Assembly (NCBI GenBank): GCA_017938695.1
Contig: JAGBBA010000025.1
Span: 48,843 to 112,842 of the forward strand
Reading direction: 5' to 3'
Origin: Clostridia bacterium
GTDB lineage: Bacteria > Bacillota > Clostridia > Christensenellales > Aristaeellaceae
Length of the DNA stretch: 64,000 nt
Made by a program: the position numbers and the translations under genes. The notes under the pieces were generated by a model that was given only the letters and a program-made list of their open reading frames with translations, made no database searches and was not told the origin of the DNA. The first letter of the stretch is position 1; each line of letters starts with the position of its first letter. Shown here piece after piece: positions 44,113-60,236 of the stretch.

Positions 44113-44116
44113 TGAA

Positions 44117-44164
44117 GCTGGTCGAAGTGGCGGGATTCGAACCCGCGGCCTTTTGGTCCCGAAC
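44117..44164 (-). repeat. Left attachment site: 3' part of tRNA-Pro(CGG)
   Basis: This 48-bp sequence is repeated exactly at 60189-60236. On the minus strand it runs from inside the anticodon loop (TTCGGGA, anticodon CGG), through the variable loop and T arm (GCGGG-TTCGAAT-CCCGC) to the acceptor strand and CCA. The tRNA 5' half is absent. This marks the left end of the mobilizable island. Confidence 0.92.
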
Positions 44165-44342
44165 GCCGGTTGTTAGTTTTAAAATCATAAATTATTGTCC
44201 GGTTTTTCTGAAGCTGTTTGCTGGCGTATAGACCTTGAAAACACGGTGTTTTCACGTAACTTCGAGAACGCATATGAGTCCCACAGAACCACCTCTCTGA
44301 TGTGATGGAAGCTAACAGCAGAGGGGTGGGTTTCGTTTGTGG

Positions 44343-44376
44343 CACGCAAGATACTACGCAAGATAACACTTAAGAT
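44343..44376. repeat. 34-bp direct repeat, left copy, flanking exonuclease cassette
   Basis: It starts CACGCAAGATACTACGCAAG and ends ACACTTAAGAT. It matches 46154-46187 at 32 of 34 positions and contains an internal ACGCAAGA duplication. The rest of 44165-44390 shows no gene. Confidence 0.8.
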
Positions 44377-44390
44377 GATACCTGTTGCTC

Positions 44391-45524
44391 TTAGAGCGTA
44401 ATACTTGCCTCGCCTTCTTTAACAATCACAATTGAACTGCCTTTTTCCTGCAGCTCCATTGCCTTTTTAACCTTGCTGCCGTAGTTGCCAGAGCTCCACA
44501 TATCACTGCCAAGCTCACCTACGATCAGGTAGCCAGTTTTCTTCGTGACACTCTTACCGGCGATTCCGCCTTGCGCCACAAAATATGCTTCCACCTGACT
44601 GCGCCCTCCAGCTTTGAACTCGCCAGTCAAGCAAAACACCTTACCACGGATATCAAAGCAGCCACACTCAGTCTGCCCAACAGGATCTGTGATCCTTGTA
44701 AACAGATCCAGCAATTCTTCCTTTTCACGGGCATCCAGGATACCATCCTGTGTAGCCTGACGCACAGTGCGGAACACCTTATCAAAGGGGTAATTCCCTT
44801 CAAGCTCCTGATTCTCAGTCATCCAGCGCTCCAGTACCATCACTTCTTCTGAAGTCAGAACACCATCAGCCGAAATAGACTTAAGAATCATCTGCAGAGT
44901 CTGCAGTCGGAGAGTTGTTTCGCTGGGCTGCGCACGGCGCATACCTGACGCCCTTTTTTCTGTACAGGTATTTGCTATATCATAGCTGCGAACGTAATCT
45001 GTCGGATCGCAGCCCTGCTTCAAATAGTGGATTAGCAACCCTGCGCAAGCCTTGGCATCATCCAGTGCACAGTGGTGCTGTTCCAACGGAATGTGCAGCA
45101 TCGTGCAAAGCGTATTCAGTTTGTGGTTTTGCGCATGGGGGAAGCACTTCCTGCCCATCTGGCAGGTGCAAGCATAATATGCATAGGGTTGCCACTCAAT
45201 CTGATAAGCATTTAGGCACTTCGCAAGCACGCTCATATCGAAAGGCGCATTATGTGCAATCAGCATACCGCTGCTAAAGATGGGAGCCAGGTCTGCCCAT
45301 GCTTCTGCAAAGGTCGGCTTATCGGCCACATCTTCCGGAGAAATACCAGTCAGCGAGATATTGAAGGCATCAAAATGAGTCTCCGGATTCACCAGAGTAT
45401 AAAACTCACGGACAATGGACTGCCCTTCAACAACCACAACGCCAATGGAGCTGATACGATCATTAGCGCTGTTAGGCGTTTCAACATCAAACACGATATA
45501 TCGCTCTATGGCAGTTGCTTTCAT
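44391..45524 (-). CDS. 3'-5' exonuclease (DnaQ-like) with TerB-like and BRCT domains
   Basis: 377 aa. Residues about 8-175 are a DEDDh exonuclease: the first acidic motif FDVETPN (Asp13, Glu15), IAHNAPFD, and HCALDDAKA with the catalytic His and Asp. A helical region at about 205-280 (SADGVLTSEEVMVLERWM, DGILDAREKEELLDLF) looks TerB/calcium-loop-like. A BRCT domain (about 288-370; RGKVFCLTGEFKAGGRSQVEAYF, TKKTGYLIVG) ends the protein. DNA repair or element maintenance is likely. ATG 45524 overlaps the preceding stop (TGATG); GTG 45527 is an alternative. Confidence 0.9.
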   Translation of the reverse strand: MKATAIERYIVFDVETPNSANDRISSIGVVVVEGQSIVREFYTLVNPETHFDAFNISLTGISPEDVADKPTFAEAWADLAPIFSSGMLIAHNAPFDMSVLAKCLNAYQIEWQPYAYYACTCQMGRKCFPHAQNHKLNTLCTMLHIPLEQHHCALDDAKACAGLLIHYLKQGCDPTDYVRSYDIANTCTEKRASGMRRAQPSETTLRLQTLQMILKSISADGVLTSEEVMVLERWMTENQELEGNYPFDKVFRTVRQATQDGILDAREKEELLDLFTRITDPVGQTECGCFDIRGKVFCLTGEFKAGGRSQVEAYFVAQGGIAGKSVTKKTGYLIVGELGSDMWSSGNYGSKVKKAMELQEKGSSIVIVKEGEASITL

Positions 45525-46057
45525 CACAGGTTATCCCCCACATTACGGTTCTTGCCGTAGAAGATACGGCCTTCTTCCAGGTTCTTTCGGTAGATGCAAC
45601 CGAGGTAGAACTTGTCATCCTCATGCAGGCAATGACCAGCATCCGAGCAGCGAACATGATCATTGCAGCAGCCAAAAGCTTCCACATTCTGCCGATTGAA
45701 GCACTCTTGGAGCAGCGCGCAAAGCATTTCTTGCACGACGGCTACAGAGGCTTCATCGGTTATCAGCGGAATTTGCGCATATGTTCTCTTTTCACCTTTA
45801 TGCAACACAGCTCCGGTGATACGGTCAATATATGGGAAAAGAAACTCTTCCTCCGTATCAAGGCACTGCGTCTTGCTGTTGATACGGATATTGAAAATCT
45901 TTTCCCCATAGAAGGAAATAGAAGTGGTCGTTTTCGCTACGTTGATGGTGACATCCTGCTTGTTTTCGACAATGGAACAAATTGTATCGAAAATGGTTTC
46001 GGGCTTCAGATCACCGAATGTATAAACCATGCCCATAGGCACACACATTGTATTCAC
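45524..46057 (-). CDS. Hypothetical protein with C-terminal cysteine/histidine cluster
   Basis: 177 aa, not recognised. The first 130 residues look like a mixed alpha/beta domain without clear motifs. The C-terminal 45 residues hold a dense Cys/His set (FGCCNDHVRCSDAGHCLHEDDKFYLGC), probably binding zinc or a cluster. It is first in a two-gene minus operon, stop-start coupled with the exonuclease-BRCT gene, and has a consensus promoter. The pair is enclosed by 34-bp direct repeats. The start is either GTG 46057 or ATG 46048. Confidence 0.75.
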   Translation of the reverse strand: MNTMCVPMGMVYTFGDLKPETIFDTICSIVENKQDVTINVAKTTTSISFYGEKIFNIRINSKTQCLDTEEEFLFPYIDRITGAVLHKGEKRTYAQIPLITDEASVAVVQEMLCALLQECFNRQNVEAFGCCNDHVRCSDAGHCLHEDDKFYLGCIYRKNLEEGRIFYGKNRNVGDNL

Positions 46058-46110
46058 CTGTCCTTTGAAATCCAGTATGAAGAATCTTACCTGAAAAGGA
46101 ATCTACCTAA

Positions 46111-46139
46111 ATTATACGTCTACTGCCGAAAAACGTCAA
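46111..46139 (-). promoter_or_regulatory. Strong sigma-A promoter of the exonuclease cassette
   Basis: On the minus strand: TTGACG-N17-TATAAT, about 54 bp upstream of the hypothetical gene. Confidence 0.85.
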
Positions 46140-46153
46140 GTCTCCATGCGCGC

Positions 46154-46187
46154 CACGCAAGAAACCACGCAAGATAACACTTAAGAT
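46154..46187. repeat. 34-bp direct repeat, right copy
   Basis: CACGCAAGAAACCACGCAAG ... ACACTTAAGAT, 32/34 identical to 44343-44376. It lies between the divergent promoters of the exonuclease cassette and the Fic gene. Confidence 0.8.
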
Positions 46188-46188
46188 A

Positions 46189-46217
46189 TTGCTATTTTCT
46201 CCGCTACCCGATATAAT
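46189..46217 (+). promoter_or_regulatory. Promoter of the Fic gene
   Basis: TTGCTA-N17-TATAAT, ending 25 bp before ATG 46243. Its -35 starts right after the 34-bp repeat. It excludes the upstream TTG as the true start. Confidence 0.8.
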
Positions 46218-46242
46218 AAATACAGAAAGCGAGGTCAAGCTC

Positions 46243-47235
46243 ATGTCATATCAGCCGCCCTTTACCATCACCAACCGGATGCTGATGCTCGTCGCCGAGA
46301 TCGCCGAAAAGACCGGACGCATCAGCAATTACAAATCCTTCGAGACCAAGCCCCATCTGCGCCGCAACAACCGCATCCGCTCCATCCACTCCTCCCTGGC
46401 TATTGAGGCCAATTCCCTCTCGCTGGACGAGGTGCGCGGCGTAATCGCCGGCAAAACGGTGATCGGCCCGGAAAAGGAGATCCAGGAGGTCAAGAACGCC
46501 TACCAGGCCTACGATATGCTTGGGCGTTTCGATCCTTATGATATCGCCGCGCTGAAGCAGCTCCACGGCGTGATGACCTACCTGACTGTGCAGGAGTCCG
46601 GCAACTTCCGCAGCGGTAACGAGGGTGTATTCAAGGGGGATCGGTGCATCTTTATGGCTCCGCCGCCCCACCTTGTGCCCGATCAGATGGACGAGCTATT
46701 CCGCTGGATGCGGAGTGCATCCACCACGGTGCATCCACTGATCCTGTCCTCCGTGTTCCACTATGAGTTTGTGTTCATCCACCCCTTCAGCGACGGCAAC
46801 GGACGCATGGCCCGCCTGTGGCAGACGGCGCTGCTGTCTGCATGGAACCCGGTATTCCAGTACCTGCCGCTGGAGAGCCGCATCCACGAGTTCCAGGACG
46901 ATTACTACGAGGCTATCGCCGCCTGCCACTCCGCAGGGCGCTCCGACACCTTTGTGGAGTTCATGCTGGACAAAATCAACCTGACGCTGGATTGGGCACT
47001 GTCGCAGATCTCCGGTGAGGATGCCTACCTGCCAGAGCAGGTGCGGCGTCTGCTCGATGCGATGGAGTATGATGTGCCCTACACGGCTGCGCAGATCATG
47101 GCTGCACTGGGGCTGAAATCGAAGGAGAACCTGCGCAAGCTGTACATCGGCCCGGCGATTGAGAAAGGGCTGGTAGTTATGGGGATGCCGGATAAGCCAA
47201 CGAGCAGGAATCAGACGTATATGAAAAAACTCTAA
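46243..47235 (+). CDS. Fic/DOC family protein (class II, self-inhibited)
   Basis: 330 aa. The Fic core motif HPFSDGNGR is at residues 180-188; it transfers AMP or a related group from a nucleotide to a protein hydroxyl. An N-terminal inhibitory helix motif SSLAIEAN (50-57) precedes the core, with Glu55 as the expected blocking residue, so it is class II. A C-terminal winged-helix-like part (about 265-330; YTAAQIMAALGLKSKENLRKLY) follows. The start is at 46243, within reach of GCGAGG and 25 bp after the promoter. No separate antitoxin gene is adjacent. The protein targets are unknown. Confidence 0.94.
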   Translation: MSYQPPFTITNRMLMLVAEIAEKTGRISNYKSFETKPHLRRNNRIRSIHSSLAIEANSLSLDEVRGVIAGKTVIGPEKEIQEVKNAYQAYDMLGRFDPYDIAALKQLHGVMTYLTVQESGNFRSGNEGVFKGDRCIFMAPPPHLVPDQMDELFRWMRSASTTVHPLILSSVFHYEFVFIHPFSDGNGRMARLWQTALLSAWNPVFQYLPLESRIHEFQDDYYEAIAACHSAGRSDTFVEFMLDKINLTLDWALSQISGEDAYLPEQVRRLLDAMEYDVPYTAAQIMAALGLKSKENLRKLYIGPAIEKGLVVMGMPDKPTSRNQTYMKKL

Positions 47236-47349
47236 TTATAAGCTGCATAGGCTCTGTATGAAGATGGAATCATCGTTTTTTTCAGATATTTCGGTTAATA
47301 CATTGAACGCTATTTGATCAATAAGTTTGAGCACTAATTCGGGGGTAGG

Positions 47350-47471: not shown

Positions 47472-47525
47472 TCGTAAGCGCTTCCGTTAATTTACGTTGA
47501 CGAAGGCACTTGATCAAGACATAAT
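47472..47525 (+). promoter_or_regulatory. LacI-type operator and promoter of the maltodextrin operon
   Basis: The palindrome AAGCGCTT (47476-47483) within CGTAAGCGCTTCCG resembles MalR/cre operators. The promoter TTGACG-N17-CATAAT (47497-47525) follows. Together they fit control by the LacI protein encoded at the operon end, or by CcpA. Confidence 0.65.
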
Positions 47526-47575
47526 ATAGCCAGAAGTCACAGCATACACAAGCTGTGAAAAAGGAGGAAAAGAAT

Positions 47576-48748
47576 ATGAAAAAGCTTCTTTCCATCGTTT
47601 TGGCGTTGGTCATGTGCTGTGCGGCTTGCACGGCGATGGCCGAAAACATCACCCTGAAGGTCTGGGAAGGCCAGGATGATCAGGAACTGCTGAAGGAACT
47701 GTGTGAGGCATATGCAGCCCTGCATCCCGAAAACACCTATACTTTCCAGTATGGTGTTGTTGGTACCGCTGATGCGAGCACCCGCTATCTTGAAGATCCG
47801 GCTGCTGCTGCGGATGTGTTCGTTTATCCTGATGATCAGCTGATTCGTCTGGTACAGGCTGACGCGCTTTACGAGGTAACTCGTAACCACGATGCGATCG
47901 TTGCTGCCAACAGCGTTGGTTCTGTGAATGCTGCAACGTACAAGGATACGCTTTATGGCTATCCTATGACCTCTGATAATGGCTACTTCCTGTTCTACGA
48001 TAAGTCCGTTCTGACTGAAGAAGATGTCAAGACTCTGGATGGCATTCTGGCTGCTGCCGAGAAGGCTGGCAAGCAGTTCAACTTCGATATCGCTAACGGC
48101 TGGTATCTGGCTTCCTTCTTCATCGGCAATGGCTGCACCATCACGCTGGATGACAATGGCAACCAGGTATGTGACTTCAACAACGAAAAGGGTCTGGAAG
48201 CTGCCAAAGCAGTGGCTGCGCTGTGTGCGCACCCCGCTTTCCTGCCTGGCGACCAGAACATTCTGACTGGTACGATCGGCGAAAGCGTTTGTGCCGGCGT
48301 GTGTGGCACCTGGGTGGCTGATGCCATCAAGGAACGCCTGGGTGATAACTATGCTGCTGTTAAGCTGCCTACCTTCACAGTTAACGGTGAGCAGGTTCAG
48401 ATGGGTTCCTTCGGCGGTTGCAAGATTCTGGGCGTGAATACTCAGAGTGCCTACCCCGTTGAAGCCATGAATCTGGCTGAATTCCTGACCAGCGAAGCGA
48501 GTCAGCTGCGTCGTTTCGAAGTTCGTGGTTATGGTCCGTCCAACATCAACGCCGCGAACAACGAAGCTATCGCTTCCGATCCTGCGCTCGCCGCTCTTGC
48601 AGCACAGAGCAACTATGCTATTACTCAGTTGATTATTGGTGATTTCTGGACGCCTGCAACTGCGTTTGGTAATGCTCTGATCGCTGAGCCTAATGCAGAT
48701 CTTCAGCCTCTGCTTGATCAGTGGGTGGCTCAGACTGTCGGTCAATAA
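47576..48748 (+). CDS. Maltodextrin-type solute-binding protein (MalE-like)
   Basis: 390 aa. The signal peptide MKKLLSIVLALVMCCAAC... has a cluster of cysteines near the cleavage site; lipidation at the last one is possible though the lipobox is not ideal. The mature part is MalE-like in length and motifs: ITLKVWEGQDDQELLKELCEAY, DVFVYPDDQLIRLVQADALYEV, TYKDTLYGYPMTSDNGYFLFYDKSVL. AAGGAGG precedes ATG 47576. It is the first gene of a five-gene sugar operon carried as island cargo, followed by an intercistronic hairpin. Confidence 0.93.
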   Translation: MKKLLSIVLALVMCCAACTAMAENITLKVWEGQDDQELLKELCEAYAALHPENTYTFQYGVVGTADASTRYLEDPAAAADVFVYPDDQLIRLVQADALYEVTRNHDAIVAANSVGSVNAATYKDTLYGYPMTSDNGYFLFYDKSVLTEEDVKTLDGILAAAEKAGKQFNFDIANGWYLASFFIGNGCTITLDDNGNQVCDFNNEKGLEAAKAVAALCAHPAFLPGDQNILTGTIGESVCAGVCGTWVADAIKERLGDNYAAVKLPTFTVNGEQVQMGSFGGCKILGVNTQSAYPVEAMNLAEFLTSEASQLRRFEVRGYGPSNINAANNEAIASDPALAALAAQSNYAITQLIIGDFWTPATAFGNALIAEPNADLQPLLDQWVAQTVGQ

Positions 48749-48761
48749 TTCGTCTACTCCA

Positions 48762-48792
48762 GGAAAGGCTGCCAGAACATGGCAGCCTTTCC
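48762..48792 (+). terminator. Intercistronic hairpin after the MalE-like gene
   Basis: The 13-bp perfect stem GGAAAGGCTGCCA / TGGCAGCCTTTCC has a 5-base loop and no long T tail. It likely stabilises the binding-protein mRNA or attenuates read-through into the permeases. Confidence 0.75.
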
Positions 48793-48814
48793 CGGCTTTC
48801 CGGAGGTACATGTT

Positions 48815-50155
48815 ATGAAACAGCTGCTGATTGGGATGCGGCAAGGAGACATCTGGGTAAAGGGCTCCTGCCTGGTTATGGGGCTTGGGTGCATCAAGCG
48901 AAAGCAAATAATCAAGGGCTTCCTCTATCTGGCTGCAGAAGCTCTGTTTTTCCTCTTTTTCTTTGGCTTTGGTTGGAAATACCTGCAGCACTTTCTGACG
49001 CTGGGCGAGAATGCACAGAAACGCATCTGGAATGAGAGCCTGCAAATCTATCAGCGAGTTCCTGGAGATAACAGTATGCTGATTTTGCTTTTTAGCGTAC
49101 TGACAGTTGCGGTGACTGTATTGTTTGTTTACCTGTGGCTGCTAAATCTGAAAAGTGCTGTTTATGTGTACCGCTTGGAAAAAGAAGAGAAACATATTCC
49201 TTCTTTTAGCGAGGATCTGCGCAGCTTGTTGGATGAAAGATTTCACGTTACACTTCTCAGCGTTCCAATGACTACGCTCTTGCTATTCACGGTGCTTCCG
49301 ATCATCTTCATGATCTTAATTGCCTTTACGAATTTCGATGCCAATCACCAGCCTCCGGGAAATCTGTTCACATGGACTGGTTTGCAGAATGTAACAGATA
49401 TTTTCCTCGGCAATGCAACAAAGACACATACGTTTACCGGCATTCTTGCATGGACAATGGTATGGGCTGTCTTTGCCACGTTCACCAACTACATTTTCGG
49501 TATGCTGCTTGCAATCATCATCAATCACAAGCTGGTACGCCTGAAGAAAATGTGGCGTACATGGTTCATGATCCCGATTGCTATACCGCAGTTTGTCAGC
49601 TTACTGCTGGTTTCCCGCGCGCTGGAGCCAACAGGTGCAATCAACGTAGCACTGATGGAGCTTGGCTGGATTGAAACACCACTTCCTTTCCTGACGGATG
49701 TCACGCTATCGCGCATTGTAGTCATTGTTGTCAACATGTGGATCGGTATTCCCTATACCATGATGACATTCTCGGGTGTTCTGATGAATGTACCTGAGGA
49801 ACTCTATGAAAGCGCAGCAATTGATGGTGCTGGCCCTGTACGTAAATTCGTCAATATCACGTTACCATATATGATTTTTGTCACAGCACCTGCCACCATT
49901 ACCACGTTTGTGGGCAACATCAATAATTTCAATGTCATTTACTTGCTCACAGCTGGCGGCCCTGCCAGTCTTGATTATTACCAGGCTGGTAAAACAGACC
50001 TGCTGGTCACCTGGCTGTACAAGCTGACAGTTGATCAACATGACTACGCTTTGGCGTCTACCATTGGTATTTTCATTTTCATGATTGTTTCTGTGTGTTC
50101 CCTGACCGTATACAACCGTACTGGTGCTGTAAAGAAGGAGGATATGTTCCAATGA
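48815..50155 (+). CDS. Maltodextrin ABC permease (MalF-like)
   Basis: 446 aa, longer than the other permeases here. Extra N-terminal membrane helices (about 30-50 and 90-115) are followed by a cytoplasmic/linker region, and the MalF core begins near residue 150. The EAA loop is ELYESAAIDGAGPVRKF followed by ITLPYMIF. CGGAGG precedes ATG 48815. It overlaps the MalG-like gene by 4 bp (ATGA). The N-terminal GMRQGDIWVKGSCLVMGLG segment is typical of clostridial MalF proteins. Confidence 0.94.
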   Translation: MKQLLIGMRQGDIWVKGSCLVMGLGCIKRKQIIKGFLYLAAEALFFLFFFGFGWKYLQHFLTLGENAQKRIWNESLQIYQRVPGDNSMLILLFSVLTVAVTVLFVYLWLLNLKSAVYVYRLEKEEKHIPSFSEDLRSLLDERFHVTLLSVPMTTLLLFTVLPIIFMILIAFTNFDANHQPPGNLFTWTGLQNVTDIFLGNATKTHTFTGILAWTMVWAVFATFTNYIFGMLLAIIINHKLVRLKKMWRTWFMIPIAIPQFVSLLLVSRALEPTGAINVALMELGWIETPLPFLTDVTLSRIVVIVVNMWIGIPYTMMTFSGVLMNVPEELYESAAIDGAGPVRKFVNITLPYMIFVTAPATITTFVGNINNFNVIYLLTAGGPASLDYYQAGKTDLLVTWLYKLTVDQHDYALASTIGIFIFMIVSVCSLTVYNRTGAVKKEDMFQ

Positions 50156-51006
50156 AAAAACATGTGAACAAGCGCAATTTGCGCACCTCCATCGGATTGC
50201 ATACACTGTTGACAGTTCTTTCGGTCTTGTGGATGTTGCCGGTTTTCTGGCTTCTGCTTTCTTCCTTCCGCAAGGAACCAGGCGCATATACCCCCTATCT
50301 TTGGCCGAAGGGATTTACCTTTGATAATTACACTCGTCTGTTTACTGATACACGTTTGTTCAATTTCCCTCGCTGGTTCATGAATACATTGTTTGTAGCA
50401 ATATGCTGCTGCGTGCTGACAACCATACTGACGCTGATGGTTGCATATGTGTATTCTCGTCTGCGTTTCAAGAGCCGTAAAGCCATCATGAACATATCTC
50501 TCATTTTAGGTATGTTCCCTGGCTTTATGAGTATGATTGCAATTTATCATTTCATGAAAGCTATTGGGCTGGATCAGACCTTGCTGGCGCTGATTCTGGT
50601 CTATTCCGGTGGTGCTGCTTTGAACTATTACATTGCCAAAGGCTTCTTCGATACGATTCCTAAAGCACTGGATGAGGCTGCAACGCTTGATGGAGCATCA
50701 AAAAACACCATCTTCTGGAGGATCATTCTTCCAAACTCCAAGCCCATCGTTGTGAACACAGCAATCAATGCCTTCATTGCTCCCTGGGTCGATTTCATCT
50801 TTGTTTCTGTTATCATGAAGGATAACTACAATAACTACACTGTTGCCAAAGGTCTGTACACGATGGTGGATAAGGCAAATATCTACCATTACTACACTGT
50901 GTTCTGTGCCGGTTCTGTTATTGTGGCCATTCCCATTGTCCTTCTGTTCATCAGACTGCAAAAATACTATGTTGCCGGCGTTACCGGCGGCGCGACGAAA
51001 GGATAA
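50152..51006 (+). CDS. Maltodextrin ABC permease (MalG-like)
   Basis: 284 aa, MalG type, with the EAA loop ALDEAATLDGASKNTIFWR followed by IILPNSKP and the C-terminal YVAGVTGGATKG, characteristic of maltodextrin permeases. AAGGAGG precedes the ATG, which overlaps the MalF stop. The amylase gene follows after 5 bp. Confidence 0.95.
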   Translation: MKKHVNKRNLRTSIGLHTLLTVLSVLWMLPVFWLLLSSFRKEPGAYTPYLWPKGFTFDNYTRLFTDTRLFNFPRWFMNTLFVAICCCVLTTILTLMVAYVYSRLRFKSRKAIMNISLILGMFPGFMSMIAIYHFMKAIGLDQTLLALILVYSGGAALNYYIAKGFFDTIPKALDEAATLDGASKNTIFWRIILPNSKPIVVNTAINAFIAPWVDFIFVSVIMKDNYNNYTVAKGLYTMVDKANIYHYYTVFCAGSVIVAIPIVLLFIRLQKYYVAGVTGGATKG

Positions 51007-51011
51007 TCACT

Positions 51012-52739
51012 ATGCAATACGCTGCCATTGTTCATCGGCCCATGAGCGAATTCGCATTCCCTTTGGACAGGACACATTTCGTTTTTCGCCTCCGGACAGC
51101 TAAAAATGATCTGAAAGAAGTGACCTTTTATTACGCTGACCGGGCAGACATGGCCCCGGAATTAACGTTCTTTTCAATGCCAATGCCATTGATTCGCTCT
51201 GATATGCTTTATGATTGGTATGAAGTCAAATTGGAGACGCAATGGCAGCGTGTTGCCTATTACTTTCTGCTCGATGATGGCAATTCTCAATGTTGCTTTG
51301 CTGGAGAATGCTTTGAAAAAGCAGAAGCCATTATTGAACGTAGTGAGTATTTTCAGTATCCTTTCAACCATAAAGCAGATCTTGCTCAAATACCAGACTG
51401 GGCAAAAGAAGCCGTTGTCTATAACATTTTCCCTGACAGTTTCGCAGATGGAAAGCGCAACATTTCTTGCAATGGAAAAAGCAAAACTTATGGGAATTAT
51501 CCTTCTGTATCAAACTATGGCGGCACGATCAATGGAATTAGAGAAAACCTCGATTACATCAAAAACATGGGGTTCAATTGTTTATACCTTAATCCGATTT
51601 TCACAGCCGGTGCCTATCATAAGTATGATACACTTGATTACAAGCATATTGATCCTTGTTTCGGCACAGATGCTGATTTCAAAGCAATGGTGCATGAGGC
51701 ACATCGTTTAGGAATTCGTGTGATTGTGGATGGCGTCTTCAATCATTTGAGCTGGCACCATTTTTCTTTCCAGGATGTTCTCAAAAATGGTGAATCATCG
51801 CCATACTATGACTGGTTCTATGATCTTCCTGTTCCGTTGGTATTGCCACATGACAATGAAGTACCGCAATACACTTGTTTCGCATATGTAGCCAATATGC
51901 CTAAGACTAATACTGCTTGTCCCGCCCTACAGGCATATTTCTGTGAAGTAGGCCAATACTGGCTGCGGGAGTTTGATGTAGATGGCTGGCGGCTGGATGT
52001 GGCGAACGAAGTTGATGATAGTTTCTTGCGAACATTCCGAAAAGCGGTAAAAGAAATCAAGCCTGACGCCATGATTATCGGTGAAGTCTGGGAAAACTCG
52101 GAGCATTACATGACTGGTGACATGGTAGATGGGGCTATGAACTACGATTTCCGTCGTTTTGCCACACAGTATTTTGCTGAAAATATCCTGACAGCGGCCG
52201 AATTTGATCTCAGACTTAGCAGCTTGCTGATGCGATATAAGAAGCAAATGCTGCCCGGGCAACTGAACTTGCTGGATGGACATGATACACCTCGCTTCTT
52301 GTCTCTTTGCCAGGGTGATATGATTAAGATGGAACTGGCCATCCTTTTCCAGATGACCTTTGTTGGTATGCCATGTGTCTTCTATGGAAATGAAAAGGAA
52401 ATGATGGGTATAAAGGAAGCCGAATACCGTATGCCCATGCCCTGGGAGACCGTTTCGCCGCTGACTGACATCTATCAGCAAATGATTGGTCTGCGCAAAG
52501 CGAATATGCCTTTGACACATGGTGATTTTAAAACGATAAAGGCAGAAGGTATGCTACTTCACTACGCTCGTACTTGGAAGAACGAACGCATTGATATCGC
52601 CATGAACCCTGGTCAAACCTCTATCAAATATGATATCAGCGGGGAATGTCTATTGAAAAAAAGAGCTTCCTGTGGTTTACTGATGCCAGGTGGATATGTG
52701 ATTACAAGGAGCGTTATCAATGGCAACCACGATTTATGA
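51012..52739 (+). CDS. Cyclomaltodextrinase/neopullulanase-type GH13 enzyme
   Basis: 575 aa, cytosolic (no signal peptide). An N-terminal beta domain (about 1-120) precedes the barrel, as in GH13_20 maltogenic amylases and cyclomaltodextrinases. The catalytic triad is visible: nucleophile Asp329 in GWRLDVANE, acid Glu358 in GEVWE and Asp425 in LDGHDTPRF. The first conserved region is VDGVFNHLS. The N-terminal size and residue positions closely match characterised maltogenic amylases. It cleaves imported maltodextrins or cyclodextrins. The 3' end overlaps the LacI gene by 20 bp. Confidence 0.95.
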   Translation: MQYAAIVHRPMSEFAFPLDRTHFVFRLRTAKNDLKEVTFYYADRADMAPELTFFSMPMPLIRSDMLYDWYEVKLETQWQRVAYYFLLDDGNSQCCFAGECFEKAEAIIERSEYFQYPFNHKADLAQIPDWAKEAVVYNIFPDSFADGKRNISCNGKSKTYGNYPSVSNYGGTINGIRENLDYIKNMGFNCLYLNPIFTAGAYHKYDTLDYKHIDPCFGTDADFKAMVHEAHRLGIRVIVDGVFNHLSWHHFSFQDVLKNGESSPYYDWFYDLPVPLVLPHDNEVPQYTCFAYVANMPKTNTACPALQAYFCEVGQYWLREFDVDGWRLDVANEVDDSFLRTFRKAVKEIKPDAMIIGEVWENSEHYMTGDMVDGAMNYDFRRFATQYFAENILTAAEFDLRLSSLLMRYKKQMLPGQLNLLDGHDTPRFLSLCQGDMIKMELAILFQMTFVGMPCVFYGNEKEMMGIKEAEYRMPMPWETVSPLTDIYQQMIGLRKANMPLTHGDFKTIKAEGMLLHYARTWKNERIDIAMNPGQTSIKYDISGECLLKKRASCGLLMPGGYVITRSVINGNHDL

Positions 52740-53718
52740 TTTGGCTGAAGCAGCAGGTGTATCTATTGCGACGGTATCGCGCGCACTGAATAATCACTAT
52801 GCCGTTTCAGAAGCAACCAAGAAACGCATACTGGCGTTAGCAGAGGAGATGGATTTCCATCCAAGTGCCAGAGCGCGTAGCTTTGCAAAAAGAAGATCCG
52901 GAATTGTTCTGTTCGTAACCGATCTGTACAGGAATATTGCCTTTGAGAACCCGCACATGTTTGAAATCATCACGGGGATATCCCAATATTTGGATTCCAA
53001 GAACTACTCTCTGTTGATTAAGCATATTTCTGCGAAAGACGCACCGTCAGGCATAAAAGATCTCATGAACAAGGAACAGGCAGATGCTGTGATTATTCAT
53101 GCAGCAATCCTCAGCCGCACTTTGGCAGGGGTGATCAGTCACATGGCGCTGCCACACCTGATTATCGGAAAGCCTGATTTCCCAACATCCATATGTTGGA
53201 TTGATGTCGATCACGAGCAAGCAGGACAAAAGGCAGCAACATATCTACTGGATAAGGGATATCGTCGGATGGTTTTCCTGATGGGAAACGAAGAGACTGA
53301 CAAAATTTCTTTAGCTCGTAGAAACGGTATGCTGAGCATGTTTGAGGAAGAAGAACTGTCATTCACCACATTGTATGGGGATAGCAGTTATGAGTCTGGG
53401 ATTGATTTGGCGGAAAAAGCGATATCGCAGAATCCGCTACCCGATATCATCCTGTGTACAAACAACTACATTGCAATGGCATGTTTACAGGTGGCCCGAC
53501 ACAAAGGTCTGGATATCCCTGATACAGTCGCAATCATGACGTTTGACAATTACCCCTTTTCCATGCTTGTTCAGCCTCAGTTAACTGCCGTTGAGGCAGA
53601 CATGTATGACATGGGACAGGAAGCGGCTCGTTTCATTCTCCGCAAAGTCAAAGTGCCGGAGCTGCAAACACAAAGCTACTGCACGATTCCGCGAATTGTC
53701 GAGCGAGAATCAACATGA
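52720..53718 (+). CDS. LacI-family transcriptional regulator
   Basis: 332 aa. The helix-turn-helix at residues 4-24 (TIYDLAEAAGVSIATVSRALNN) is followed by the hinge and a periplasmic-binding-protein-like effector domain (PHLIIGKPDFPTSICWIDVDHEQAGQKAATYLLDKGYRR). It is likely a repressor that senses a maltodextrin and binds the AAGCGCTT palindrome ahead of the operon. It starts inside the amylase gene, so it is co-expressed. Confidence 0.95.
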   Translation: MATTIYDLAEAAGVSIATVSRALNNHYAVSEATKKRILALAEEMDFHPSARARSFAKRRSGIVLFVTDLYRNIAFENPHMFEIITGISQYLDSKNYSLLIKHISAKDAPSGIKDLMNKEQADAVIIHAAILSRTLAGVISHMALPHLIIGKPDFPTSICWIDVDHEQAGQKAATYLLDKGYRRMVFLMGNEETDKISLARRNGMLSMFEEEELSFTTLYGDSSYESGIDLAEKAISQNPLPDIILCTNNYIAMACLQVARHKGLDIPDTVAIMTFDNYPFSMLVQPQLTAVEADMYDMGQEAARFILRKVKVPELQTQSYCTIPRIVEREST

Positions 53719-53800
53719 ATGGGATACACATTCATATTGTTTGCAGGAGCGGAGCTTTGAGCTGGGTCATCCAATAGGGGCGTGTAGCATCCCTGTTGGC

Positions 53801-54024: not shown

Positions 54025-54669
54025 TCATTCCTGCCGCAGCAGTTCCCGGCGGGTGTTATCAAGGGCGTTCTTTTCGATGCTCTTTGCCCAGCTACGACTT
54101 AAATGGAAGTGCCTTGCGGTATCGGCAATAGTGCGTTCCTGGTTCTCTTCATCAAAGCCGAAACGGTATTGCAGGTAGGTGGATTCCCGGTTGTTCAGCT
54201 TGTTCAGGGCAGCATGAACCGCTTCGTTTCGTTCCTTGATCAGATAGATCTGCTCCGGGGAAAGGTGGTATCGGCTCACCAGATAGAGGCATTCACCTTT
54301 TCGATATACAGTACCTTCCTGCAGCAGCAACCGCATGTGGGTGCCCTGTTCTTTCAGAGCGTCATACTGCTGGTGCATGTAATCCATCATGGAACGTCGG
54401 ATGGCCATGGTGGCATAGGTCAAGAACTTGCTGCCTGCATCCGGTTTATAATGCGTACAGCTTCGCAGTAATCCGAAGGCGCCTTCCTGTACCAGATCAT
54501 CAGTGGTGATGGGCAGAGTGTCAGCCACCTTTTCGTACTTATCCCATAACTGTTGGGCACACTTGTTCAGGTATCCCCAGTTTTGTTGCAGCAGCAGATT
54601 CGGCGCGTCGGTATTGCCGTCTTGTACCATCCTGCAAAGCTCTTCATTGGTCAGGGGCAAGTTGTTCAT
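54025..54669 (-). CDS. Sigma-70-like RNA polymerase sigma factor
   Basis: 214 aa. The region 2-like segment (about 45-100; DDLVQEGAFGLLRSCTHYKPDAGSKFLTYATMAIRRSMMDYM) is the canonical core-binding/-10 recognition signature. The region 4-like helix-turn-helix (about 155-210; LNNRESTYLQYRFGF, TIADTARHFHLSRSWAKSIEKNAL) would read a -35. It overlaps the XRE gene by 26 bp. Such sigma-like factors occur on mobile elements of gut Clostridia, where they probably switch on transfer or excision genes. Confidence 0.9.
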   Translation of the reverse strand: MNNLPLTNEELCRMVQDGNTDAPNLLLQQNWGYLNKCAQQLWDKYEKVADTLPITTDDLVQEGAFGLLRSCTHYKPDAGSKFLTYATMAIRRSMMDYMHQQYDALKEQGTHMRLLLQEGTVYRKGECLYLVSRYHLSPEQIYLIKERNEAVHAALNKLNNRESTYLQYRFGFDEENQERTIADTARHFHLSRSWAKSIEKNALDNTRRELLRQE

Positions 54670-55447
54670 CAGGTTTCACCACACTTTGTACCAGCGCACG
54701 GAAGGCATCCTGCACTGCGGACGGGTTGGCATCCAGTTGCGTGGCCGCCACATGGGAAATTGCCTCAGCCACATCATCAACCGATACCGATTTTCTGGGT
54801 GCATTTTGCCCTTTGTTGAGTTCGTCATAGGTTTGCTTCATGATCTGCAGAACAGTTTTATCAGACGGTTTGGGCAGCGCACCCACCTGTTTCTTGATCT
54901 CCCGCACCGCCTGCATGAAGGAATCCTCAATATCATGCAGGTCATGCTGATACACCGGCGTCTGAAGGGCAGACAGCTCCCTTTGTGCCTCCGGGAAACC
55001 GGATAATTTTGCACCGGCAAAGGCCAACATCTGGTTGACAACATGTACCCCCTGGGCAATTTCGTTGTTCAGCATGTTCATCATCTGCCATGTAGCGCGG
55101 GCGAAATGCTCGTTTTCCAATAAACAGCTGACGACAACGGGATTGGCTTTTTGTGTGTACAGATTCCGCGCCGCCTGGGTTGTCAGACCGAGTTCTGCGA
55201 TATCATAATTCATCCGGTCCGGGACGTCGCTTTCCCCCAGAAGGAAATCGGTGGACACGTTAAGGGCTTGGGCGATGCGATTGAGATTATCATCGCTCAG
55301 CTTTTCGGTTTTACCGCTGATGAAACGGCTGATCAGGCTTTTCGTACAGCCGGATCGGGCGGCAAGCTCGGCCTGGGTGATCTTTCTGGACTTGAGCAGA
55401 TCCTGCAGACGGTCGCGGATTTTTCCGGGAAGATATACTTGCTCCAT
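54644..55447 (-). CDS. XRE-family regulator of the mobile element
   Basis: 267 aa. An N-terminal helix-turn-helix (about 10-68; KITQAELAARSGCTKSLISRFISGK) is followed by a long helical C-terminal region of unknown function (about 75-267). It is first in a two-gene operon with the sigma-like factor, divergent from the primase gene. It probably represses element genes through the inverted repeats in 55558-55622. Confidence 0.9.
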   Translation of the reverse strand: MEQVYLPGKIRDRLQDLLKSRKITQAELAARSGCTKSLISRFISGKTEKLSDDNLNRIAQALNVSTDFLLGESDVPDRMNYDIAELGLTTQAARNLYTQKANPVVVSCLLENEHFARATWQMMNMLNNEIAQGVHVVNQMLAFAGAKLSGFPEAQRELSALQTPVYQHDLHDIEDSFMQAVREIKKQVGALPKPSDKTVLQIMKQTYDELNKGQNAPRKSVSVDDVAEAISHVAATQLDANPSAVQDAFRALVQSVVKPDEQLAPDQ

Positions 55448-55622: not shown

Positions 55623-55722
55623 CTGAATGATTGCAGTAGTGCCGGATTTCTACGGTCATGGCCATTTTCTCCGTATAATCTAACGACAAGAGATTGTCAG
55701 AAAAATGAAAGGAGGAAATGTC

Positions 55723-56301
55723 ATGAACATTTTCCGCAACACCAAAGCAGCGATTACCCCCCGACAAGCCGCCCAACATTATGGACTATCGGTGGAGCCA
55801 TCCGGCATGGCTCACTGCATCTTCCATGATGACCGGCACCCCAGCATGAAGCTGAATGACACGTACTTTTACTGCTTCAGCTGCCATACTCACGGTGATG
55901 TGATTGATCTGGTTGCCCAGCTCTTTCACGAAAGTCCGTATGATGCAGCCAAACGATTGGCTTCTGATTTCTGTATATTAGCAGCCCCACAACAAAAAAG
56001 CATGGAAGCAAGGCCACTGACACAGCCATCTCCAACAGAGGAGCGGCTGTGTTTTTCTATTCTCATGGATTATGAGCAGTGCCTGCAGCAATGGAAGAAG
56101 GCCTATGCCCCCACAGACCCGGAGGAAGAACCGGATGAACGGTATGTATTGGCCTGCTACGATCTGCCCTACATCAGCAGTCTGGTGGATATCTGGTTTC
56201 AGCCGGACAAGGAACAGCAGCAGAAACTTGCGCAGGCTCTTTTGCAGGATGGAACGCTGGTGCAGATCCTGAAGCGAATGACCAATGCCAGGGAGGAGTG
56301 A
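55723..56301 (+). CDS. CHC2 zinc-finger primase-like protein
   Basis: 192 aa. The zinc finger has Cys32, His35, Cys51 and Cys54 (HCIFHDDRHPS ... YCFSCHTHGD), as in DnaG-type primase N-termini. Only the zinc-binding part is present; no TOPRIM catalytic domain is visible, so it probably works with the helicase encoded next. GAAAGGAGG precedes ATG 55723. It has 4 bp to the helicase gene. The role is priming of element replication or of the transferred strand. Confidence 0.9.
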   Translation: MNIFRNTKAAITPRQAAQHYGLSVEPSGMAHCIFHDDRHPSMKLNDTYFYCFSCHTHGDVIDLVAQLFHESPYDAAKRLASDFCILAAPQQKSMEARPLTQPSPTEERLCFSILMDYEQCLQQWKKAYAPTDPEEEPDERYVLACYDLPYISSLVDIWFQPDKEQQQKLAQALLQDGTLVQILKRMTNAREE

Positions 56302-56305
56302 AACA

Positions 56306-57673
56306 ATGGCAAACAACAAGATTTCCCCTGAGTTTTGGCCGGAATGGTACGATGGCAAAACCATCAATGAAGCTGTCTTCTGCCAGCATTTCCTCCGGGA
56401 ACACAAGCTGGTCTTCACCGAAAACGCCTTCTTTTCCGTGCAAGGGCGCATAGTGGATGAGGCACCATTGAAAATGGATATTTTCAATCTGCTGGAACCT
56501 TACGTGGTTACCAGCGTGACCAAGAAAATCGCCAGCATTATTGAACTGCTGAAGATCACCGCCCATGTTGATGATTTGCCGCCCCAGGCCGATCGTATCC
56601 ACCTGATCAATGGCACCCTGTTCCTGGACGGAAGCTTCTCGCCGGACATGAATGAAATCGTCCGCAGTCGCTTTTCAATCCGCTATAATCCGGATGCACC
56701 AGCCCCGGAACGTTGGCTTGCTTTCCTCAACGATCTGCTGCATGAGGAGGATATCCCCACTTTACAGGAATTCATGGGCTATTGCCTGATCCCCAGCAAC
56801 AAGGGTCAGCGGATGATGGTCATCAAGGGCAGTGGAGGTGAGGGCAAAAGTCAGGTCGGCGTGACGCTCTCCCGTCTTTTTGGTGTGAACGCCAAGGACG
56901 GCAGCGTAGGCAAGGTGTCCGAGAATTGCTTTGCCCGGGCCGATCTGGAGCACATCCACCTGATGATTGACGATGATATGCGCATGGAAGCCCTGAAACA
57001 GACCAATTATGTGAAATCCCTTGTGACGGCCCAGGGCAAGATGGACTTGGAGAAAAAAGGACAGCAGAGCTACCAGGGCTGGATGTATGCCCGGCTGCTG
57101 GCCTTCTCCAACGGCGACCTGCAGTCCCTCTATGACCGCAGCGATGGCTTCTACCGGCGGCAGCTGGTACTGACCACCAAGCCTAAACCGGTTGACCGCC
57201 CGGACGATCCGGATCTGGCTGCCAAGCTGTGCGAAGAGCTGGAAGGCATCTTTCTATGGGCGTTTGAGGGGCTGCAACGGTTGGTGGCAAACAAATTCCG
57301 CTTCACCGAAAGCGACCGGGCAAAAGCCAACCGCGAGGTGATCAAGCGAGACGCCAACAATGTGATTACCTTCATGGAATCCACTGGCTATATCAAGCTG
57401 GATCCGGATGCTTCCGTCAGCGCCGAGGAATTTTACCGTATCTATTGCCTTTGGTGCGAAGAGAATTGCTCCACCCCCATGAAACGTCGCAGCGTCAGCG
57501 ATTTTCTGATGGCAAATCTCAGCAAGTATGGCCTGGATCACAACAACAATCAGGTCAATGCTGCCGGACGCAGAGTGTGGGGATTCCAGGGCATACGCGC
57601 CATTGTGAAACTACCCATGGAAACCAGGGATGGCTGGCAACGTGTTGAACCGGAAGACAATCCCTTTGCCTAA
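56306..57673 (+). CDS. Phage/plasmid P4-type primase-helicase (SF3-like)
   Basis: 455 aa. The D5/P4-type N-terminal region (about 120-165; WLAFLNDLLHEEDIPTLQEFMGYCLIP) precedes a Walker A GSGGEGKS (175-182) and a Walker B HLMIDDD. A C-terminal winged-helix-like part lies at about 370-440. GGGAGGAG precedes ATG 56306. It unwinds DNA for autonomous replication of the excised element together with the CHC2 protein. Confidence 0.93.
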   Translation: MANNKISPEFWPEWYDGKTINEAVFCQHFLREHKLVFTENAFFSVQGRIVDEAPLKMDIFNLLEPYVVTSVTKKIASIIELLKITAHVDDLPPQADRIHLINGTLFLDGSFSPDMNEIVRSRFSIRYNPDAPAPERWLAFLNDLLHEEDIPTLQEFMGYCLIPSNKGQRMMVIKGSGGEGKSQVGVTLSRLFGVNAKDGSVGKVSENCFARADLEHIHLMIDDDMRMEALKQTNYVKSLVTAQGKMDLEKKGQQSYQGWMYARLLAFSNGDLQSLYDRSDGFYRRQLVLTTKPKPVDRPDDPDLAAKLCEELEGIFLWAFEGLQRLVANKFRFTESDRAKANREVIKRDANNVITFMESTGYIKLDPDASVSAEEFYRIYCLWCEENCSTPMKRRSVSDFLMANLSKYGLDHNNNQVNAAGRRVWGFQGIRAIVKLPMETRDGWQRVEPEDNPFA

Positions 57674-57707
57674 AACCATACATATAAGGATTTTCCGCTA
57701 ATCTCTA

Positions 57708-57744
57708 TGTACATACGTACTGCGTACATGAGTACGTACGTACA
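57708..57744. repeat. Nested TACGTAC palindromes upstream of mob
   Basis: The outer arms TGTAC...GTACA enclose several TACGTAC/GTAC units. They lie 38 bp before the relaxase start, and could be an operator or a structured leader. The oriT match at 53.8 kb makes this less likely to be the transfer origin. Confidence 0.5.
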
Positions 57745-57781
57745 CAGCAATTTCAATCTGTTTCTATATAAGGAGCTTTTG

Positions 57782-58756
57782 ATGAAAGAAAAATATGCTA
57801 TTATGCGATTCGCCAAGTATAAGGGTCCGGAGATCAGCCGGATCGAAGGTCACAACGAGCGAACCAAGGAGAAATATGCAAGTAACCCCGACATTGATCC
57901 CACCCGTTCCCATCTGAACTTCCACCTGATTGCCCCTGTCGGAAAATACCGCCAAGAAGCAGAGCGACAGATTGCCCGTGCCCATTGCCGCACACGAAAA
58001 GATAGCATTCGTGTGGTAGAAACCATCATCACCTGCAGCCCTGGATTTTTTAAGGACAAAGGTCCTGAAGAAATTCGGGCTTTTTTTGTGCACGCTTTGG
58101 ACTTCCTGCGGCAGAAGCAAGCGCCGGAAACCTTCCTGTCTGCTGTGGTGCACCTGGATGAAAAGACACCTCATATGCACGTCAGCTTCGTGCCTCTGAC
58201 GCCTGATAAGCGCCTCTCTGCCAAGGATATCATCGGCAACCGCAGGAGTCTGATTGCCTGGCAGGACGCTTACTGGAAGCACGTGGTGGCCAAGTATCCG
58301 GAACTCGCCCGGGGCGAAAGCGCCAGTCTCACTGGCCGCACTCATATTCCTACACAGGTGTTCAAGCAGATGGCTCGCCTGACCAAGAAGCGACAGCGCA
58401 TCGAGGCCGTGCTGGACGGCGTGAATCCCTTCAACGCCAAGAGCAAGGCTGACGAACTCCGCCACCTGCTGGATGATTATATTCCAGGCGTAGAAAAGAT
58501 GGCCACCCAACTGAAAAAGTACAAGGCGGCTTTTGAGGACGTCGAAACCCTGGAAGCAGAGAATGCCGACCTCTCCCAGGAGCTGGATGAAGCCAAGCGC
58601 GGCAGCATCCAGGAGAAGATGGAGTTTGCTAAGCTCCGGCAGGAGCACAGGGATGCGGTTGCTCTGTTGGACAAGATACCCATGGATGTATTGGATCAGC
58701 TGAAGAAGGAGGCCAAAGCTGACCAGCGGAATGTAACGGAGAGGTTGAATAAGTGA
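57782..58756 (+). CDS. MobV-family relaxase (Pre/Mob)
   Basis: 324 aa. The MobV metal-binding motif HLDEKTPHMH (His124, Asp126, Glu127, His131, His133) and an N-terminal MRFAKYKGPEISRIEGHNERTKE region are present. The C-terminal third is coiled coil (about 230-310). It nicks oriT and leads the strand into the recipient through a helper's secretion channel. TAAGGAGC precedes ATG 57782. Its stop overlaps the integrase start (TGATG). Confidence 0.95.
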   Translation: MKEKYAIMRFAKYKGPEISRIEGHNERTKEKYASNPDIDPTRSHLNFHLIAPVGKYRQEAERQIARAHCRTRKDSIRVVETIITCSPGFFKDKGPEEIRAFFVHALDFLRQKQAPETFLSAVVHLDEKTPHMHVSFVPLTPDKRLSAKDIIGNRRSLIAWQDAYWKHVVAKYPELARGESASLTGRTHIPTQVFKQMARLTKKRQRIEAVLDGVNPFNAKSKADELRHLLDDYIPGVEKMATQLKKYKAAFEDVETLEAENADLSQELDEAKRGSIQEKMEFAKLRQEHRDAVALLDKIPMDVLDQLKKEAKADQRNVTERLNK

Positions 58757-59994
58757 TGACCCCTATGCTACAATTATCGCAGGACGAGCTCCAGCAGATG
58801 CTGCACACCGCCGCCAGGGAAGGTGCGCAGACGGCGCTGGAGGCCTCCGATGCGTTCGTGCACCTTGACAATTACACCAGCAATCACTCAGAAATATCGG
58901 ACATGTCGAAGGAGGAAAACGACGATATGTCCCGTAACCGAATCAGGCATAATCTGATCATCGGCCATAACCCCGATGGCACGCCTATCACCCGATGGAT
59001 CAACGGCTACACCATGCAGGAGCTTATCGAGAACGGCGCGGCGCTGCTGCGTCCGGAGGCTTCGCAGGAAGCTCCTGAGAAGCCCGGCGTGCCGACCTTC
59101 CGCAAGTACGCCACCAGCTGGCTGGAGCTCTACAAGACCCACACAGTGCGCCACACCACCTACTCAGAGTACGCCAGCATCCTTCAAAGGCACCTGATCC
59201 CTGCCTTCGGCGACCTGCCGGTGACGGAGATCACCACGGACAGGATCCAGCAGCTGCTCAACGACAAACGCGATTACGCCAGCAAAACCCTGCACGAGAT
59301 CCAGATGGTGCTGGGCATGGTGCTGGAGGGCGCGGTGGAAGACGGGCTGATCACCCGCAATCCGGCCAAGTCGAAGCGGCTGCGCAACCCTTCCACGAAG
59401 AAGAATGAGCGTGAGGCGCTGACGGAGGAGCAGGTGGGCGATATCATCAGCCATCTGCCGGACTTGAAGCAGAAACGCGACCAGCGCTATCTGGCCCTGC
59501 TGATCTACACCGGCATGCGCCGGGAAGAGGTGCTGGGCCTGCGCTGGGAGGACGTTGACACGGAGAAGGAGCTGCTGCACGTGCGCCGCGCCATTACCTT
59601 CAAGGGAAATCTGCCGGTCATTGGCGAAACCAAGACCCGCAACGGCAAGCGCACCATTCCGCTGCACCCCGATCTGCTGCAATGGCTGACTCACGAGGAG
59701 GACAACCGCGAATACGTGATGCAGGACAACGTGACCTCATCCACCATGAAGCGCACCTGGGAGCGCATCAAGACGGAGATCAACGTGTACGGCGCGACGC
59801 CGCACTGCTTCCGGCACACATTCACCACAGTCTGCCGCCGCAGCGGCATGGACGAGAAGACCATGCAGGTCATCGGCGGCTGGTCGGATATTGCCACCAT
59901 GCGCAACGTTTACACCCATGTGCAGCAGACGGATCTGCAGCGCGCAGGTCAGCTGATGGGAGGCATGTTCAAAGCCGGAAATTTGCCGGCCTGA
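58756..59994 (+). CDS. Tyrosine-type site-specific integrase of the island
   Basis: 412 aa. The N-terminal 90 residues are extra and helical. The SAM-like core-binding domain covers about 110-205. In the catalytic domain are Arg255 (TGMRREEV), His350 and Arg353 (PHCFRHTF), a GGW motif and the nucleophile Tyr386 (RNVYTHV). It recombines the tRNA-Pro site lying 195 bp downstream. It is coupled to the relaxase by a TGATG overlap; GTG 58753 is an alternative start. Confidence 0.95.
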   Translation: MTPMLQLSQDELQQMLHTAAREGAQTALEASDAFVHLDNYTSNHSEISDMSKEENDDMSRNRIRHNLIIGHNPDGTPITRWINGYTMQELIENGAALLRPEASQEAPEKPGVPTFRKYATSWLELYKTHTVRHTTYSEYASILQRHLIPAFGDLPVTEITTDRIQQLLNDKRDYASKTLHEIQMVLGMVLEGAVEDGLITRNPAKSKRLRNPSTKKNEREALTEEQVGDIISHLPDLKQKRDQRYLALLIYTGMRREEVLGLRWEDVDTEKELLHVRRAITFKGNLPVIGETKTRNGKRTIPLHPDLLQWLTHEEDNREYVMQDNVTSSTMKRTWERIKTEINVYGATPHCFRHTFTTVCRRSGMDEKTMQVIGGWSDIATMRNVYTHVQQTDLQRAGQLMGGMFKAGNLPA

Positions 59995-60008
59995 TTGCCA
60001 ATGTAAAA

Positions 60009-60045
60009 AGCCCGCAAGCCCTTGGAAATCAAGGGTTTGCGGGCT
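60009..60045 (-). terminator. Hairpin after the integrase gene, terminator-like on the minus strand
   Basis: A 16-bp nearly perfect stem begins AGCCCGCAAGCCCTTG. The T run (TTTTTA) follows on the minus strand only. The plus-strand integrase transcript would meet the stem without a T tail. Confidence 0.65.
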
Positions 60046-60151
60046 CCCAGAACACAAGAAAATTGCCATTTGCCTTGCCAGATGGACGATCTGGAACCAA
60101 ATGAGCCATTGTCCCATCCGGCAAGACATACCAACATGCACAAAACACAAC

Positions 60152-60187
60152 AAAAAACGACCAGATTTTACAAGAAATCGGTCGTTT
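60152..60187 (-). terminator. Element-borne terminator next to the right att site
   Basis: On the minus strand AAACGACC/GGTCGTTT extended by GATTT/AAATC, with one bulged base, is followed by TTTTTT. It starts a few bases after the CCA of the right tRNA-Pro copy, mirroring 44081-44112 and able to terminate a reconstituted tRNA. Confidence 0.75.
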
Positions 60188-60188
60188 T

Positions 60189-60236
60189 GCTGGTCGAAGT
60201 GGCGGGATTCGAACCCGCGGCCTTTTGGTCCCGAAC
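60189..60236 (-). repeat. Right attachment site: second tRNA-Pro(CGG) 3' copy
   Basis: An identical 48-bp copy of 44117-44164. Beyond the repeat the minus strand keeps the 5' anticodon-stem strand (TTTGG) and a D-loop-like GCAGTTTGGT, but no matching acceptor 5' strand, so it is not an intact tRNA. It separates the first island from the second. 60237-60366 contains no other feature that I can support. Confidence 0.9.

Follow-up and report, generated by a model that had tools for sequence, protein, structure and literature searches.

An integrative and mobilizable element at tRNA-Pro(CGG) in a Clostridia bacterium, and its very probable place in a tandem array

The 64,000 nucleotides of Clostridia bacterium DNA analysed here (the window; contig JAGBBA010000025.1 of assembly GCA_017938695.1, called C76 below) carry at positions 44117-60236 an integrative and mobilizable element (IME) of 16.07 kb, element 1, with a tyrosine integrase (Int1), a MobV relaxase and a P4-type primase-helicase. 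In all likelihood it belongs to a tandem array at a tRNA-Pro(CGG) gene, a second element, element 2, having later entered the tRNA that element 1 had restored, with the working gene copy now outside the window.

Element 1 is bounded by identical 48-bp repeats spaced 16,072 bp apart, a correspondence far above chance, which bears out an earlier note, made from the sequence alone, that had described two exact copies. Read in the tRNA sense, each repeat begins with the base immediately preceding the anticodon loop and extends 2 nt beyond CCA, in keeping with the anticodon-loop crossover proposed in that note. GC content per kb is 0.43-0.62 within the island vs 0.57-0.65 in the left flank. The ends are as follows.

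44117 to 44164, minus strand: att1, the distal displaced tRNA-Pro(CGG) 3' half at the left end of element 1; exact 48-bp repeat, same core and same arm in relatives
44165 to 44348, no strand assigned: conserved left arm of element 1; arm motif found, and 44119-44348 matches G012, G010, G004 and others at 83-94% identity
60189 to 60236, minus strand: att2, the tRNA 3' half that element 1 would once have restored, now displaced; 5' half lacking, third copy on contig C31

Overlooked in the earlier note was the state of the tRNA itself: ARAGORN, run on the whole window, found zero tRNAs, and both repeat copies are orphan 3' halves from which the 5' half is absent. A 45-nt core (up to 3 mismatches) has three occurrences in the assembly to which the window belongs: att1, att2 and C31:50049-50093. 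Only on C31 is it part of an intact tRNA-Pro(CGG). The note's reading, one island with the restored tRNA as its right-hand copy, accommodates the exact repeats, the terminators and the integrase and relaxase inside, but that copy has neither D-arm nor acceptor 5' strand and is not called by ARAGORN, an intact copy lies elsewhere, and another integrase, Int2, is found 131 bp beyond the boundary. The narrow form of this reading is already refuted, and we give the reading as a whole almost no chance of being correct.

The integrase, relaxase and replication genes that the note had placed inside the island are confirmed by profile matches.

54025 to 54669, minus strand: sigma-70-like factor (PF04542, PF04545)
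54644 to 55447, minus strand: XRE-type regulator (HTH_3)
55705 to 56301, plus strand: CHC2 zinc-ribbon primase part (PF01807)
56285 to 57673, plus strand: P4-family primase-helicase (DUF5906; TIGR01613 at 112.5 bits, cut-off 108.7)
57707 to 58756, plus strand: MobV relaxase, open reading frame (ORF) with its start probably at the ATG at 57782 (PF01076; NF041497 at 150 bits, cut-off 100)
57710 to 57746, plus strand: candidate origin of transfer (oriT), a GTAC-rich inverted repeat; same position in 6 relaxase loci, sequence differs
58753 to 59994, plus strand: Int1, tyrosine integrase of element 1, pointing at att2 (PF00589); homologues adjoin intact tRNA-Pro

As expected of an IME, a site-specific integrase lies within the att repeats and the element has its own relaxase without mating-pore genes, no type IV secretion system product being found by Pfam among the 14 element-1 proteins scanned. 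The inverted repeat, recognised by eye, stands just 5' of the relaxase gene in six of seven loci, which are all those holding that stretch; the oriT of the earlier note is therefore retained as a candidate, unproven as such. A phage satellite (P4- or PICI-like) would likewise possess a P4-family primase and an integrase, and the right end of one relative does occur in a viral-contig collection. This alternative is nevertheless very unlikely: the relaxase scores above its curated cut-off and is accompanied by the candidate oriT, Pfam recognised no packaging, capsid or capsid-size family in the same 14 proteins (one of them without family), and the phage genes of the viral contig (IMGVR_UViG_3300029305_006195) lie on the other side of the att core, beyond an element 1 right end and a displaced core. 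Three of five proteins scanned from this contig match PHROG tail, head or endolysin families and two match none; it is probably an independent accretion, a third kind of integrant at tRNA-Pro.

Relatives of Int1 reveal how the right end relates to the tRNA. A search of 250 genomes of the family (E<=1e-60) matched 25, its own included; seven, from three genera (G002, G017, G267, G030, G123, G223 and G249), are 87-97% identical, and the remaining matches 32-45%. In 7/7 of these relatives an intact tRNA-Pro(CGG) lies no more than about 200 bp beyond the right end, with the same terminator hairpin, which upholds the note's claim of a mobilizable island with its ends in this gene. Int1 identity is 97% in G002 and G017, 96% in G267 and 87-88% in the other four, whereas that of the housekeeping protein GltX is 84%, 78% and 64-65%, respectively. 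Because Int1 is far more conserved than GltX, element 1, as judged from these identities, has moved between species and genera. A search of named records gave eight Int1 loci, of which one (25% identity, Acetobacteraceae record) was set aside; the other seven are assemblies of Clostridia from metagenomes; the samples were goat, sheep or water-deer gut for six, and for one (SIG362) no host is stated.

A complete relative of 12.9 kb is found in G249, where an intact tRNA-Pro is followed by the element and then by a displaced copy with related arm; this element carries its own binding protein, two permeases and a RelB/ParE-like pair. The relative in G002 spans about 18 kb, and its displaced core is trimmed to 23 nt. 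It also encodes (L104, 3421-5031) a protein weakly resembling TIR effectors (Pfam E about 1e-3, below cut-off; PADLOC E 1e-4), a possible defence cargo. No Int1 match at E<=1e-60 was found in G004, G006 and G012, the closest species checked by GltX (97-98%). The integrase of G004 may simply be missing from the assembly, which is 87% complete: at one contig edge its tRNA-Pro is followed by a right end of the element-1 type, and a second contig carries the arm together with a displaced core.

The earlier note had suggested looking for relatives without the island, and these exist: G006 and G015 share the CotH-side neighbourhood, the CotH gene lying 1.7 and 3.1 kb, respectively, from an intact tRNA-Pro/tRNA-Thr pair whose tRNA-Pro is uninterrupted; in each genome gene and pair are on a single contig, which has no PF00589 integrase. 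A piece resembling window positions 44281-44352 (the element left-end hairpin) lies beside CotH in G006 (C44, about 3717-3783) without an att core and is perhaps the scar of an old insertion.

On the right, the window continues past att2 to base 64000, where contig C76 also stops.

60367 to 61614, minus strand: Int2, integrase of element 2 (PF00589); 22% identical to Int1, G112 homologue with a tRNA-Pro 3' fragment
61608 to 64000, no strand assigned: genes next to Int2 as far as the contig end, tentatively assigned to element 2; HTH regulators and one unknown

Int2 is most likely the integrase of a second element, inserted into the tRNA after element 1 had restored it. A search of 200 family genomes (E<=1e-80) matched four, its own included, and in G112, of another genus, the homologue (54% identity) is followed, 95 nt after its stop codon, by a 3' fragment resembling tRNA-Pro(CGG); the distance in the window is 131 nt, and an equal spacing of the two is thus refuted. 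With Int2 as a second element, and a displaced tRNA-Pro 3' half also beside its G112 homologue, the locus reads as a tandem (accretion) array in which two displaced target fragments, att1 and att2, each mark the boundary of an element of their own, alongside the intact tRNA and the two integrases Int1 and Int2. On C31, an intact tRNA-Thr(CGT)/tRNA-Pro(CGG) pair is followed by a third, different terminator and then by mobile-type genes, namely one with DUF932, one with DUF4942 and, almost up to the contig end, unnamed ORFs.

The array could have arisen in the following way. Recombination by Int1 would take place between attP and the anticodon-loop region of the tRNA-Pro(CGG) gene. The gene would be made functional again by the right end of element 1, which would provide a 3' half, its CCA encoded, together with a terminator, and the old 3' half with its terminator would be pushed 16 kb away as att1. 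Element 2, with its unrelated integrase, would later have entered the restored tRNA, bringing with it a third 3' half and terminator, those found today on C31, and displacing the copy of element 1, which became att2. The resulting order would be tRNA-Thr/tRNA-Pro, element 2, att2, element 1, att1 and the CotH gene. MobV and an oriT may permit transfer by a co-resident conjugative machine, and the P4-type primase-helicase probably replicates the excised circle.

Similar arrangements are found in relatives. Displaced cores with the element 1 arm occur in G000, G002, G004, G007 (two), G009, G010 and G012 (two), and G012 has an additional, more diverged displaced core. One contig of G012 (C19, 40.9-59.2 kb) holds three displaced tRNA-Pro copies in tandem, bounding islets of 8 and 10 kb; without any PF00589 match on this contig, the islets look like cis-mobilizable elements (CIMEs); farther on, the contig encodes a PF03432 relaxase and a serine recombinase. 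Islet cargo includes HlyD/ABC transport genes and CutC. In G007 (C49, 8099-8350), an intact tRNA-Pro and a displaced copy with the element arm stand only 175 bp apart, a nearly gene-less remnant.

Two other origins of the att2 junction were considered. Int2 and its genes could have arrived with element 1 as one larger composite, and transfer of tandem elements as a composite is reported in a review (PMC5704250); the seven Int1 relatives, however, have the tRNA and no Int2 at that end, and Int2 occurs in 4/200 genomes, none of them an Int1 relative, although only G002 of the seven is among the sampled genomes listed. We consider a composite improbable, though slightly less so than the phage satellite. 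An assembly chimera at the tRNA repeat is conceivable in a metagenome assembly with three copies of the 45-nt core, yet it is as poor a candidate as the satellite, given that G112 independently has an Int2 homologue beside a tRNA-Pro fragment and that displaced copies stand in tandem on one contig in G012. Several observations weigh against a tandem array of mobile elements as proposed here: C31 and C76 are separate in the assembly and their ends do not overlap (the end stretches match nothing else there, and the genome is 87.5% complete); the genes upstream on C31 (PepP, EF-P) had no counterpart by the tRNA in those stretches of relatives that were retrieved; two of the three Int2 homologues (G177, G146) have no tRNA fragment within 700 nt; an arm-core (attP-type) junction had 0 matches in viral contigs; and contig C123 of G010, tried as a circular form, was rejected for want of a terminal overlap.

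Transcription terminators accompany the tRNA 3' ends.

44081 to 44113, minus strand: terminator hairpin by att1, host side (fold z -4.9; homologous in contig C23 of G004)
60010 to 60044, minus strand: second hairpin with T-run, between the first terminator and int (fold z -5.7; two compensated pairs)
60152 to 60188, minus strand: element-borne terminator behind the tRNA 3' half (fold z -4.5; conserved in 10 aligned sites)

As the earlier note had it, each repeat copy is followed by a minus-strand hairpin, and the two (44081-44113 and 60152-60188) have different stems; for each, 0/200 shuffles fold as well. That the right one is element-borne is borne out, since the seven relatives have Int1 beside an intact tRNA-Pro with the same hairpin. 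That the left one is native is only probable from these comparisons: G004 shares it, but G006, G012 and G015 carry other terminators beside the CotH-proximal core, so an earlier insertion may have left it behind. The note's idea of an element restoring both the tRNA 3' half and its stop holds in that element 1 brings its own of each; it fails for the right copy here, which is displaced, with mobile DNA and another integrase beyond.

A hairpin-plus-T scan of 26 loci detected a terminator at 28 of their 31 tRNA sites, intact (17/18) or orphan and displaced (11/13); these sites are related and are not 31 independent events. Random segments taken from these loci scored positive in 163 of 2000 cases. 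Between lineages (5 vs 4 right ends), mean identity is 0.89 for the terminator, 0.62 for the spacer after it and 0.89 for the integrase gene 3' end. Across the 10 aligned sites, 10 of the 15 stem pairs of the first terminator are invariant and 99.3% of cells are paired; its covariation amounts to one double change and does not exceed that of shuffles (104/500). The second hairpin shows two compensated pairs between lineages, one pair broken in 4/9 sequences, a few others broken in single or few sequences, and a T-run lost in four.

Such terminators are not special to element 1. Counting a tRNA 3' end that faces an integrase within 350 nt as adjacent, we surveyed three sets. The genus set comprised 62 of 68 integrase matches (four Int1, Int2 and G004:C3 left out), 15 of which face a tRNA, all convergent and 15/15 with a terminator; two co-directional tRNAs at 1.8 and 2.5 kb were excluded as not adjacent. 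The 24 family homologues examined, leaving out Int1/Int2 rows, one duplicate and two without a locus, gave 15 facing, all convergent, 12 with a terminator. The order set (70 of 75 matches; 4 own-genome matches and one other left out) gave 15 facing, 11 convergent (9 with a terminator) and 4 co-directional (3 with). A phylum-wide set was not used, its best scorers, of about 300 amino acids, being presumably XerC/D. Pooled, 39 of 45 adjacent pairs have a terminator. If these integrases use the tRNA beside them, as seems likely, the terminators lie in element DNA and element-borne terminators would be usual. A strict rule by which convergent integrase genes go with a terminator and co-directional ones without was not upheld, either by the order set or by Escherichia coli K-12, where the same scan found leuX-intB and ssrA-intA co-directional with a terminator, argW-intS co-directional without and argU-intD convergent without (the thrW region, lacking an adjacent integrase gene, was not counted).

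With slightly more doubt than belief, we put forward that the right end (tRNA 3' half, encoded CCA, terminator, second hairpin and convergent int) may be a conserved 'tRNA repair cassette' under selection. The intact tRNA-Pro of G004 reads CCA and its displaced copy CAT, and the G002 element brings CAC; in G004 the insertion seems, from these endings, to have changed whether the 3' CCA is gene-encoded.

The left part of element 1 is occupied by cargo.

44343 to 44376, plus strand: 34-bp direct repeat, copy 1, flanking a left cargo slot
44391 to 45527, minus strand: DEDDh exonuclease, DnaQ-like (PF00929); full length aligns to PRK06195, NF004844 below cut-off
45524 to 46057, minus strand: unknown protein of 177 aa, no Pfam, NCBIfam or PADLOC match
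46154 to 46187, plus strand: 34-bp direct repeat, copy 2 (94%), where the homologous G002 block begins
46189 to 47235, plus strand: Fic-family protein (PF02661, PF21247), 92% nucleotide identity in the G002 element
47474 to 53719, plus strand: 6.25-kb uptake block, presumably maltodextrin-type: binding protein, two permeases, GH13 amylase, LacI regulator

The uptake block aligns end to end with G108, of another genus, at 92.4% nucleotide identity, and with three further genomes at 74%, its ends being nearly equal; the G002 element has the Fic gene and lacks the block. The best solved relatives of the enzyme are a maltogenic amylase and a neopullulanase, those of the binding protein a CUT1 carbohydrate-binding protein, followed by a further solute-binding protein and by MalE1. 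NCBIfam maltose models match the cargo proteins below their cut-offs, so the substrate is assigned to the maltodextrin type only provisionally. No transporter ATPase was found by Pfam among the five block proteins scanned, and a GH13 match at E<=1e-120 was present in one of 17 genus relatives (G012, 51%). The 34-bp repeats, which bracket the exonuclease module, do not match the tRNA and were rejected as att sites; in G002 the slot is filled instead by an HNH nuclease and a nucleotidyltransferase, as if it acted as an exchange site, and a further repeat copy occurs in G008.

IME-CIME accretion and tandem islands at RNA genes are already known (PMC5704250, PMC3146451, PMC4383910). Arrays in Streptococcus and other bacteria (PMC5704250) also consist of tandem elements on one target gene with distantly related integrases, and include decayed members without integrase, as the G012 islets appear to be; the present array differs in its tRNA-Pro(CGG) target, Clostridia lineage and metabolic cargo, and in that terminators were compared, a word absent from the available text of that review. 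The ssrA islands of Dehalococcoides (PMC3146451) share the many tandem islands, displaced RNA-gene 3' ends and some metabolic cargo, but use a serine recombinase at tmRNA, where we find a tyrosine integrase and a MobV relaxase. The Islander set (PMC4383910) has displaced 3' fragments, an anticodon-centred crossover (2083/3919 islands) and 125 tandems. ICEKp1 likewise targets a tRNA, tRNA-Asn, but displaces its terminator, the tRNA promoter driving a co-directional int (PMC13023037), whereas element 1 brings a terminator and its int is convergent. A few open-access literature queries, hence a weak search, found no survey of element-borne terminators at restored tRNAs.

With its well-defined ends, element 1 lends itself to comparing, from species to species, the tRNA tail and terminator that such an element carries. 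It raises the testable question of whether elements with a convergent int carry terminators and co-directional ones lose them; in the first tests, terminators were usual either way. If the repair cassette is real, each insertion would reset the host tRNA 3' end and its transcription stop, shielding int from tRNA read-through, a strategy opposite to that of ICEKp1. For the bacteria themselves, element 1 is a likely mobile route by which related gut Clostridia swap starch-breakdown capacity across genera.

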